A stretch of 39,647 nucleotides of DNA from Thermoplasmatales archaeon SG8-52-3 (GTDB taxonomy: Archaea; Thermoplasmatota; E2; DHVEG-1): NCBI GenBank assembly GCA_001595915.1, contig LSSG01000058.1, forward strand, positions 1 through 39,647. Direction: 5' to 3'. This document shows, piece after piece, positions 5,922 through 9,259 of this stretch. The position numbers and the translations under genes are program-made. Each line of letters opens with the position of its first letter. The stretch's first letter is position 1. The notes under the pieces were generated by a model that saw only the letters and a program-made list of their open reading frames with translations, had not been told where the DNA came from and did not search any database.

Positions 5922-7427
5922 ATGAAAAATAAAATAGTTGGATTAATTATTTTTTCCCTTTTAGTTGGATTTTCTGTCTCCTTAGCATCAGGCAATGTAA
6001 CAGAAGATATAGAAGTAAAAAACAATACTACCGGTAAAAGTGGAATTTTAGATTATTGGATAGAACAGGAAAAATTACAATCTTCAGATTGTTCTCCAGG
6101 TGACTATTTTGGTTGTTCTGTTAAAATAGATGGAAATTATGCAATTGTAGGTGCATATAAAGAAAATGATGATACTGGTTCTGCATATATATACAGTCGT
6201 GATGGTGAAAACTGGATTGAAGTGCAAAAATTATCAGCCTCAGATGGAGAACCTGGAGACAATTTTGGTAAATCGGTCTCAATATTCGAAAATCTAGTTG
6301 TTGTGGGTGCCCCTGGTGATGATGGTAATACAGGTTCGGCATATTTATTTAATAATAGTGGTTCAACTTGGATTGAAGAACAAAAACTAATTTCCTCAGA
6401 CGGAGAACCTGATGATCTTTTTGGTAGCTCAGTTTCAATAAATAAAAAAATTGCCATTGTTGGAGCATATGCTGATGATAATTTCAAAGGTTCAGTTTAT
6501 GCATATAACTATAGTAGCACCAATAATACAGAATTTATAAAACTAGAGGCTGTTGATGGAGAAATTGGTGATTGTTTTGGTTATTCACTATCATATGATG
6601 GACGATTTGTAATAATTGGTGCAATTGGTGATGATAATCAATCTGGTTCTGCATATATTCTTGAATATTGCTGTTACTTTAAATGGAGAGAAAAGGTGAA
6701 TGTATCCAGTGGTGATCCCTATTTTGGTTGTTCAGTTTCAATTGATGGAGATTATGCAATAATAGGATCGCCAGGTCTTCCTTTAGATGGAATTACTGGA
6801 TCAGTTAACATCTTTAAACGTGATGAAAACAATTGGTTTGAACATACATTTTGGAATGAAACTGATAATGGAGAATATCTTTTTGGATCTGTTTCAATTG
6901 ATGGAGGACATGCTATTGCAGGTTCATATTATTTTGATGATGGAAAAGGTTCAGCATATGTTTTTAAAAGAAATGGTACAATATGGGAAAAAGAACAAAA
7001 GCTAACTGCATTAGATAGTGGATATGGAGATAAATTTGGTATATCTGTTTCAATTGATGCAGGATATATAATAGTTGGTGCAGAATGTGTTGATGCGTGT
7101 ACTGGTTCAGCATATGTTTTTATGAAAATTGGAGTACCTGATTTAACTATTGATATTATCGGCGGATTTGGAGCAAATATTATTATTACAAATAATGGAG
7201 AAAACGATACCGAAGAATTTGATGTTGAGGTTTTTATTAATGGCGGCATCTTTAAAATGGTTAAAAAATCATTCAATTTTTCAATAAATCTTCATTCTGG
7301 AGAATCCAAACAATTATCAACAAGTTTATTTTTTGGATTAGGTAAAGTCTATATTACTGCAACAACACCCTATAAGGAAAAAACAGTTTTTGCTTTACAG
7401 TTGCTTATCTATACATTTATTCAATAG
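5922..7427 (+). CDS. Secreted FG-GAP-repeat beta-propeller protein
   Basis: Signal peptide; about 7 repeats of FGxSVSIDGxxAIVGAxxDDxxTGSAYxF; CARDB-like C-terminus. Confidence 0.88.
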   Translation: MKNKIVGLIIFSLLVGFSVSLASGNVTEDIEVKNNTTGKSGILDYWIEQEKLQSSDCSPGDYFGCSVKIDGNYAIVGAYKENDDTGSAYIYSRDGENWIEVQKLSASDGEPGDNFGKSVSIFENLVVVGAPGDDGNTGSAYLFNNSGSTWIEEQKLISSDGEPDDLFGSSVSINKKIAIVGAYADDNFKGSVYAYNYSSTNNTEFIKLEAVDGEIGDCFGYSLSYDGRFVIIGAIGDDNQSGSAYILEYCCYFKWREKVNVSSGDPYFGCSVSIDGDYAIIGSPGLPLDGITGSVNIFKRDENNWFEHTFWNETDNGEYLFGSVSIDGGHAIAGSYYFDDGKGSAYVFKRNGTIWEKEQKLTALDSGYGDKFGISVSIDAGYIIVGAECVDACTGSAYVFMKIGVPDLTIDIIGGFGANIIITNNGENDTEEFDVEVFINGGIFKMVKKSFNFSINLHSGESKQLSTSLFFGLGKVYITATTPYKEKTVFALQLLIYTFIQ

Positions 7428-7457: not shown

Positions 7458-8408
7458 CTATGTGTATGTTACTGGAAAATCCCCTGGAAAAGAATCAACA
7501 ATTGTTGGATGCTGTTTTCCTTCTGAAAAAAGAACTACCCAGGGATATGCAAAATTAAAGGATTCTTCTGCTGAATTAATACCATCGTTGTTTCCAAAGA
7601 AATCACCCCAACCATTGAATCCTTGAATTATTAAATCTGAAAAAAGTGACCCATATGAATACTCTTCCTCTTGACTAGACATCATAACAACTCTGCCATT
7701 TACTGCAATATCATCTAAGAAACCTTGAGTAAATTCTTCTGCTTTTGATGGTTGAATTTCCGAAGATTTACCAGTATTAATTGGATCATTAAATCCTCCA
7801 CTAAAGCAACTATCGATTATCATACAGAGTCCTTCTGATTGTAAAAATCTAAGGAAAAATTTTAACATATCATCTGTGAAATGATCATACAATCTTTCAA
7901 AACCATAATACATAACTAAAGCTTCGTCATCTCCATCGTTTTCATCTTTAGGCGGTAGATCAACAGGGAGACCACCACTATTTCTTAAAGGTGTTCCATG
8001 GGTTGTAATATATATTAGAGTCATATCGCCTGCACGTTCATTTTTAATTAACCAAATCAATTCTCTTATTAGATTCAAGGTAGTTGCCTGACTGCCCTTA
8101 AGAACATGTATATGATCAACCTGCCAATTTGGAGAAGAAATAAGAGAACTATAGAGGTTATCTACTGCATCAAGCATTGAAGGTCTATCCTGGTCTGGAT
8201 TGTTATAATAAACTCCAACACCAACAATCAATGCCCAATTTTCTGTTGCTTTATTTATTTGCTGATAATCAATAGTTTTGTTATCATTAAAAACTTGAAT
8301 TTTATTAATATTTATTGAAGCACTATTACATACAGGTAAAAAAATTAAACCTGCGATTATAATTGATAAAATAACCATTAGAAATTTTTTGTTGTTACTT
8401 GTTTTAAT
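7458..8408 (-). CDS. Secreted caspase-like (clan CD, C13/C14) cysteine peptidase; start re-called at ATT 8408
   Basis: WALIVGVGVYYN; catalytic His ITTHGTP; catalytic Cys IIDSCFSGGF. The ORF-track ATG (8378) lies inside the signal peptide; SD GGGAGGTAG lies at about 8415-8423. Confidence 0.78.
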   Translation of the reverse strand: MKTSNNKKFLMVILSIIIAGLIFLPVCNSASININKIQVFNDNKTIDYQQINKATENWALIVGVGVYYNNPDQDRPSMLDAVDNLYSSLISSPNWQVDHIHVLKGSQATTLNLIRELIWLIKNERAGDMTLIYITTHGTPLRNSGGLPVDLPPKDENDGDDEALVMYYGFERLYDHFTDDMLKFFLRFLQSEGLCMIIDSCFSGGFNDPINTGKSSEIQPSKAEEFTQGFLDDIAVNGRVVMMSSQEEEYSYGSLFSDLIIQGFNGWGDFFGNNDGINSAEESFNFAYPWVVLFSEGKQHPTIVDSFPGDFPVTYT

Positions 8409-8588
8409 ATTAATCTACCTCCCGAAATAATAATCATAATAGTTTATGGGTTTATAAATACAATTGTTAAAAACAATTATATAACTTCTAATAACCTCAG
8501 TGAAAAAAGGTTTAAGTTTAACACTTTTGAGACAAAGTCAATTAATACTTTCAATGAACCCTCATTTACATATATAAACTAAAAACAA

Positions 8589-8703
8589 TCTTACTAAGTT
8601 TAGACTGACGTAAGATACGGGGGACATGCCCGCGCATCTCGCGCTGGCATTTCTGCCACATATTTATTGTTTTAGATTCATCCCATCCTCCTCCTTTTTT
8701 TAT
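8589..8703. ncRNA. Candidate structured ncRNA (GC-rich intergenic island), strand unresolved
   Basis: Stacked hairpins TCTTAC/GTAAGA, GGG/CCC, CGCG/CGCG, GGCA/TGCC; plus-strand TATA-like cattTACATATATAAAC at about 8566-8580 and downstream C-rich/T-tract; very GC-rich relative to flanks. Confidence 0.5.
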
Positions 8704-8779
8704 TCTTTTTGGAAAAGATTAGGTTATCTTTTTAAAATAGTTTATATTTTTATTTATTAAAAATTACTGATGGTGAGAC

Positions 8780-9259
8780 ATGAAAGAAGGATATATTAAA
8801 TTAAAAATTGCTGAATTGAATGATAAATGTAAGCATATTGATCAAATAATTTCAATGGAAAAATCAAAGCTTGAGTTATTAGAAGAAAGAGTAGGGGGAT
8901 TTAAAGACCTGATAAAAAAGTTACAGGATATAGATAATTATAAAGAAAATATGTTAAAACAAATTAAAAAAGAAAACAAAGATCTCCTTGAAAAAGAGAT
9001 TTCAAATATTACAAAAAAAGTATCAGAAAATATTGAACAAAATATTATTGTTAAGATAAAAGAAATTGAAAAGATAATGAAATATATTACAAATCGTGAA
9101 AAAGAACTATTACAACAATCAGAAAAAATATCAGGTTTAAATGATAAGATTGACTATCTTATGAACCATAATAATTATCTAATGATGAAACTTGTAAACA
9201 AAGCAGTAATTTCAGATAGAGAAGTAAATGAATTACATATGAGATCTAAAAAGAAATAG
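8780..9259 (+). CDS. Coiled-coil protein of unknown function
   Basis: 159 aa Lys/Glu-rich heptad-like sequence; SD GGTGAG upstream. Confidence 0.7.
   Translation: MKEGYIKLKIAELNDKCKHIDQIISMEKSKLELLEERVGGFKDLIKKLQDIDNYKENMLKQIKKENKDLLEKEISNITKKVSENIEQNIIVKIKEIEKIMKYITNREKELLQQSEKISGLNDKIDYLMNHNNYLMMKLVNKAVISDREVNELHMRSKKK

Follow-up and report, generated by a model that had tools for sequence, protein, structure and literature searches.

A predicted stand-alone small-RNA gene conserved in archaea and its probable pairing with the cdrS-ftsZ leader

A GC-rich island inside an otherwise AT-rich intergenic gap of an archaeal contig raises the questions of whether it specifies an RNA, from which strand such an RNA would be read, and on what it would act. 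The contig (C58) belongs to a genome bin (G000; 1.9 Mb, 79% complete) that is AT-rich and is recognised as archaeal by its aIF2-beta, CdrS-like protein, LSm and BRE/TATA promoters, and the window refers to the whole stretch of it that was analysed, 39,647 nucleotides. We report that positions 8594-8701 (plus strand) are predicted to constitute a conserved, stand-alone archaeal small-RNA gene, here named B1, with a transcript of approximately 100 nt, and our sequence comparisons suggest that a set of small RNAs may tune cell division in these archaea.

The B1 locus, its fold and its conservation

The gap is bordered on its upstream side by a gene for a caspase-like protein (7458-8378, minus strand; EACC1-associated type, weak NCBIfam match), with a gene for an FG-GAP repeat protein (5922-7427, plus strand) also upstream of the island, and on its downstream side by a gene for a 159-aa coiled-coil protein (8780-9259, plus strand), which is preceded by a second TATA-like sequence. 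Within 8544-8701 the plus strand carries, in this order, an upstream promoter box AATACTTTC (8544-8552), a TATA box TACATATATAAAC (8567-8579), a GC-rich hairpin, the C-rich tail CATCCCATCCTCCTCC (8679-8694) and a run of T residues (8695-8701); the island, a TATA-like box and a C-rich tail followed by a T-run had been pointed out in the preliminary description and all are present. The box lies 27 bp before the TATA box, a spacing found in most of the 49 class B loci (B1 and its relatives), and is itself present in 45 of them, and a TATA box precedes 46 of the 49. We regard the box as a probable site for a regulator or a basal factor. From the TATA spacing, transcription would be expected to start at approximately 8597-8602, and the T-run, which follows the tail and is kept in the relatives, is a probable intrinsic terminator. 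The box, in the form AATACTTTCAATGAAC, was also found upstream of another, protein-coding gene (L007:1501-1524, genome G002), and it may thus define a wider regulon.

The plus strand of 8586-8660 folds with a predicted free energy of -30.4 kcal/mol (z -5.0), and none of 200 dinucleotide shuffles was as good. Thermodynamic folding and conservation agree on one long hairpin at 8619-8657 (GG-GGA-AUGCC-GCGC...GCGC-GGCAU-UUC-CC), in which GGGGGACAUGCC and GGCAUUUCUGCC enclose a variable apical stem-loop. The island had been described as a row of four small hairpins. That it is structured holds, but since the fold is a single long stem the GGG/CCC, CGCG/CGCG and GGCA/TGCC hairpins mostly compete with it or form parts of it. 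Most of the TCTTAC/GTAAGA stem probably lies before the expected transcript start, and one of the relatives (G018) has no clear equivalent.

The block is kept in all three genomes of the genus with 79-85% identity. A covariance model (R1) built from five sequences, the extent of which gives the B1 coordinates, scored the locus at 129 bits and had matches in 38 of 46 genomes of the family, representing 21 of its 23 genera. The stem is 93.4% paired and includes 22 double-change cells (50 aligned copies, 49 of them distinct), and the covariation score of the hairpin was reached by 0 of 500 shuffles (49 distinct relatives). One G.U pair is conserved in 47 of the 49 copies; read from the minus strand it would become an A.C mismatch. 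The strand had initially been left uncertain; because only the plus strand accommodates this pair, and because the order of box, TATA, hairpin, tail and T-run is conserved, plus is now favoured.

The genes beside B1 vary by genus, and the coiled-coil gene flanks it in this genus only, from which it follows that B1 is a free-standing gene rather than the leader of one gene. The fixed spacing between box and TATA, the T-run and the variable neighbours are what would be expected of a trans-encoded sRNA having its own promoter and terminator. No Rfam family matched the window or the loci of seven relatives at either gathering or permissive thresholds, except for a chance match to a CRISPR repeat (E 9.8), and scans for tRNA and tmRNA gave no match at the locus. 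Features of C/D or H/ACA guide RNAs were likewise lacking, the sequence 3' of the hairpin being variable (CCACA, CCACU, CCAAU) and without an Rfam match. A coding role was rejected: the 44-aa open reading frame at 8626-8760 begins within the hairpin, and indels occur there among the relatives. Taken together, conservation, structure, promoter- and terminator-like signals, changing neighbours and the lack of Rfam identity support the original proposal that the island is a novel ncRNA gene with its own promoter.

There are two kinds of class B RNA: B1 with a C-rich tail (approximately 30 copies, including 8594-8701), and B2, which has the same promoter box and hairpin without the tail. The B2 copies (L171, L177-L185, L187, L188, L190, L192, L195-L198) converge on the 3' end of the RNase HII gene rnhB and are in part antisense to it. 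Since these paralogues keep the hairpin without a tail, the hairpin appears to have a function of its own; and since it is the GGGGGAC hairpin that they keep, the suggestion of pairing between the tail and the 5' GGGGGA becomes less likely.

A C-rich motif shared with class A RNAs and the cdrS-ftsZ leader

The tail of B1 has the motif CATCCCATCC(C/T)CTCC in common with a second group of RNAs, class A. Searched as 15 nt (CATCCCATCCYCTCC, at most one mismatch), it was present in all 46 genomes of the family, usually in several copies, and a reversed control was almost absent. Exact copies of CATCCCATCC number 16 in G000 against 0 for controls; approximately five of these correspond to RNA-like loci or to the ftsZ leader, and approximately 11, which are antisense to coding sequence or situated at gene starts, were not counted as RNAs. 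Class A is the commonest RNA bearing the motif and reads GGAAGGAAUCGGGCUGGUAGUU(UUGUU)AGAGUGCAUCCCAUCCCCUCCUAGUGAGGCCAGCC-AUCCUUCC-UUUUU, that is, a stem closing a nearly invariant loop that carries the motif, with its own BRE/TATA and a T-run. Its covariance model (R2) matched all 46 family genomes and a further 14 that belong to eight other families of the class; with the copies found through the leader sequences of family f7 (see below) added, 74 of the 81 genomes examined from the class contain class A.

Other hairpin RNAs carry the motif in a loop or stem (classes C, D, F and others), and at L046, L047, L056, L058, L059, L066, L140, L145 and L305 motifs of the CATCCCATCC type are closed by unrelated stems, i.e. 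these are siblings in the seed. The class A1 copy of G000 (C11:7757-7831, L063) has lost the 3' half of its stem right after the C-rich motif, by an insertion, a rearrangement or an assembly junction; no such loss affects the A2 copy on C53.

One set of motif copies (class E) turned out to be the opposite strand of the leader between a gene for a CdrS-like RHH protein and ftsZ (TIGR00065, E 4e-110). The reverse complement of the motif is thus a conserved element of this leader, in 35 genomes of the family and also in other families, and the B1 tail is the complement of GGAGGGGAUGGGAUG in it. The leader is laid out as GGAGGGGAUGGGAUGCACCCC-[hairpin GAAGGGCGCC..GGCGUCCUUC]-AAACUACCAG-AAUUUAGGAGG-AAUACUGUAUG, and the class A loop is exactly complementary to both of its conserved segments (GUGCAUCCCAUCCCCUCC and CUGGUAGUUU). 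The early idea that the C-rich tail is complementary to a G-rich initiation sequence is thereby supported in a more specific form. A 16S rRNA gene, from which the anti-Shine-Dalgarno sequence could be read, was not found in the G000 bin.

Outside the family, the leader and the class A RNA vary in concert: the f10 leader AACAACUACCAGCCUAUCC is perfectly complementary to GGAUAGGCUGGUAGUUGUU over 19 nt, the f4 leader CCAGCCACC matches the RNA GGUGGCUGG, and in f6 (G045) the second segment is lost from both partners. Predicted class A-leader duplexes range between -35 and -72 kcal/mol (26 genomes, 10 families). In a permutation test, which used the second-segment part of the RNA only and pairs assembled by hand, cognate pairs beat 10,000 of 10,000 permutations both overall and within f7, and at the family level 41 of 20,000 were as good; as the genomes are related, the family-level figure is the most conservative.

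With R2, no class A RNA was at first found in 17 f7 genomes. Their ftsZ leaders, which read GGGAGGGGAUGGGAUGC..GCUACCAGCC, predicted RNAs of the form GGCTGGT..CATCCCC, and the leader-derived pattern GCTGGT-N-CCATCCCC was present in 17 of 17 f7 genomes (in the leader and/or a separate gene) and in 0 controls. A separate locus with a promoter, a stem of the GGAAGGAUAGGC/GCCUAUCCUUCC type and a U-run was identified in 14 of the 17, and in G052 and G054 the complementarity between RNA and leader is unbroken over at least 28 nt. Since the leader-derived pattern recovered class A here, its apparent absence from f7 was a failure of sensitivity of R2. Pairing of class A with the ftsZ leader is a strongly supported prediction.

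For B1 itself, tails compared with their cognate ftsZ leaders in 23 genomes gave a mean z of -3.2 against composition-matched shuffled tails, and the longest exact complement between tail and leader was 10.3 nt compared with 5.9 nt for the shuffles. In G000 the tail and its own leader are predicted to pair at -31.7 kcal/mol; the 720 pieces of the window averaged -12 (sd 4.8), and one of the 720 was as good. Complementarity to a conserved mRNA target thus exceeds chance for B1 by these figures and for class A with compensatory change in addition. The complement of B1 spans the first leader segment only. No co-variation between B1 tail and leader was visible, the tails varying without clearly tracking leader variants, and compensatory change was seen in class A only. 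In one sister species (G001) the tail reads CATCGCATCC and the match is lost (longest complement 6), and among G000 loci chosen for containing the motif, an internal site in an rpiA-like gene (-34.0) and the start of a secreted-protein gene (L091, -28.9) are comparable with the leader as partners of B1. Because of the lack of visible co-variation, the lost match in G001 and the comparable scores of some gene starts, the predicted pairing of B1 with the ftsZ leader is graded as only probable.

Two further observations concern the motif and the leader. A gene family encoding RPxVIRSLRRSNxRKxIAEYLFE has the start region GGATGGGATGCAG, which is complementary to the motif of classes C and D (L083, L097 and L098 in G000, L143 in G017, L148 in G023), and these gene starts are possible further targets. 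In G017, two loci (L307, L308) have a B-type promoter followed by GGGGGAACTACCAGCAAAGGGTGCATCCTATCCCC, and the predicted RNA, which mixes leader-like AACTACCAG with the C-rich motif, is a possible sponge or hybrid.

Genomic context also links these RNAs to regulation. In families f1-f3, 39 of the 73 distinct class A loci follow a gene for an LSm/Sm-like protein (Pfam PF01423, E 8e-23), mostly by 38-60 nt and farther in a few. The LSm/Sm-like protein is the archaeal relative of Hfq. Among the A1 loci situated in this way are L033, L035, L063 and L229-L232, an sRNA gene being kept beside that of a putative RNA chaperone. Class A2 promoters and the cdrS-ftsZ promoter have the same three-part operator, CTACATATGTGCTTACATATTCATCTGC and CTACATATACACCTGCATATTTACCTGC, and it is likely that the same regulator acts on both, possibly CdrS itself; B genes have the AATACTTTC box instead. 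The operator sequence CTACATATnnnnTtACATATTcAtCTGC was seen just upstream of BRE/TATA at G000:C53:92952-93031 (L065) and in the cdrS promoters L099-L103 and L106-L108.

A proposed mechanism and the alternatives to it

Our main reading, to which we assign a probability of roughly 0.52, is that B1 is a sibling sRNA of class A and that both act in trans on the cdrS-ftsZ leader, altering the amount of FtsZ. In B1 the conserved hairpin would lead into a C-rich, single-stranded 3' tail bearing the seed that B1 has in common with class A, and both RNAs would base-pair with the leader at GGAGGGGAUGGGAUGCAC...hairpin...AACUACCAG, a site immediately preceding the Shine-Dalgarno (SD) sequence of ftsZ, whereby the FtsZ level would change. 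We infer that B1 is transcribed and acts on ftsZ in the cell, and likewise the sign of its effect and the involvement of LSm. Different promoters (the AATACTTTC box for B, the cdrS-like operator or linkage to LSm for class A) would allow different signals to converge on one leader. For the broader proposition, that FtsZ is controlled post-transcriptionally throughout the class by several sibling sRNAs (class A, B1 and others) with different promoters and one co-evolving site in the cdrS-ftsZ leader, we would put the chances at even.

With respect to the sign, repression, in which the 30S subunit would be blocked immediately before the SD, is somewhat likelier than activation. Among six leaders, five have 2-11 nt between the end of the predicted class A duplex and the SD downstream of it, and in the sixth the two overlap by 1 nt, which favours hindrance of the 30S subunit; predicted accessibility of the SD in free versus bound leaders is ambiguous, and as binding would free the SD in three of them, activation might still apply. 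Pairing might also influence how the transcript is processed between cdrS and ftsZ.

B1 might instead be a genuine sRNA whose tail serves as a general anti-Shine-Dalgarno sequence on several G-rich gene starts (e.g. GAGAGGATGGGATGCAG), with ftsZ one of these or not the main one. The B1 tails are indeed variable, often with extended C-rich repeats (CATCCCATTCCTTCCCATCC), and other gene starts in G000 have GGATGGGATG (L083, L091, L097, L098); this is nevertheless unlikely in our judgement, given that many tails retain the exact 10-mer CATCCCATCC and match the ftsZ leader better than shuffles of the same composition do. It is also conceivable, and we think rather improbable, that the hairpin is the functional body, as a protein-binding RNA or with some other target, and the tail an accessory or terminator-proximal element. 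The near invariance of GGGGGACAUGCC..GGCAUUUCUGCCA and the tail-less B2 copies facing the rnhB 3' end would fit such a role, but the tail motif is conserved in the approximately 30 B1 copies, and the same motif in class A is under target-driven selection. That the region is a cis-acting leader or DNA-level element of a neighbouring gene, giving no independent RNA, has very little probability: it does lie approximately 80 bp upstream of the 159-aa gene on the same strand, but a T-run after the tail and a separate TATA-like sequence come before that gene, and a leader of the 159-aa gene in particular was rejected because the neighbours in other genera are unrelated. A minus-strand RNA or a chance GC island is hardly credible, for even though the minus strand is also able to fold, the conservation, the plus-strand order of promoter and terminator and the conserved G.U pair speak against both.

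Comparison with known systems

CcsR/cuckoo RNAs (motif CCUCCUCCC) and UCCC-motif sRNAs of the RsaE/RoxS/LhrC type are sibling sRNAs with a common C-rich seed. These are bacterial, and their motif and architecture are unlike those of B1 and class A: in the CcsR/cuckoo RNAs CCUCCUCCC resides in hairpin loops, whereas B1 carries its motif, CAUCCCAUCCUCCUCC, in a single-stranded tail and that of class A is CAUCCCAUCCCCUCC.

In Escherichia coli, DicF pairs with the ribosome-binding region of ftsZ and represses FtsZ synthesis (PMC5069750). DicF is bacterial, prophage-borne and Hfq-dependent, whereas the archaeal RNAs are chromosomal and class-wide, differ in sequence and have their predicted site upstream of the SD; B1, situated by varied housekeeping genes and without an Rfam match, has neither the sequence of the DicF family nor its prophage location. 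Control of ftsZ or of cell division by an antisense RNA or sRNA is also reported for StfZ of E. coli and for a Klebsiella sRNA regulator (PMC9628754, PMC10907235); StfZ is a cis-antisense RNA from the ftsA-ftsZ region, and in this it differs from class A and B1, which are encoded elsewhere.

With regard to the target locus, haloarchaeal cdrS and ftsZ (the CdrS-FtsZ2 circuit) are adjacent and co-transcribed, and the locus is conserved through the archaea (PMC7439475). Its known control is transcriptional, by CdrS/CdrL, and neither "small RNA" nor "untranslated" appears in that article. Our literature search, which lay mostly outside subscription journals, returned no description of ftsZ as the target of an archaeal sRNA. 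If true, the circuit proposed here would, as far as literature searches show, be the first example of archaeal cell division being controlled by RNA, and a rare case of an archaeal sRNA with a conserved, predicted target. The regulation of archaeal cell division is largely open, and a conserved sRNA-ftsZ pair that is compensatory across ten families and linked to LSm makes RNA control directly testable. It also illustrates how a regulatory circuit can be reached from a single GC island when the genome is unannotated.

Finally, sRNA154 and sRNA41 of Methanosarcina mazei, which mask ribosome-binding sites, provide archaeal precedents (reviewed in PMC5867862; see also PMC3510493). Like B1 and class A, sRNA154, sRNA41 and sRNA162 are stand-alone intergenic sRNAs, and the M. 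mazei loops mask ribosome-binding sites also within polycistronic mRNAs (PMC5867862). Compared by description, B1 and class A differ from these in that their predicted target is ftsZ, in that no Rfam family matches them, and in that the class A-leader pair co-evolves throughout the class.
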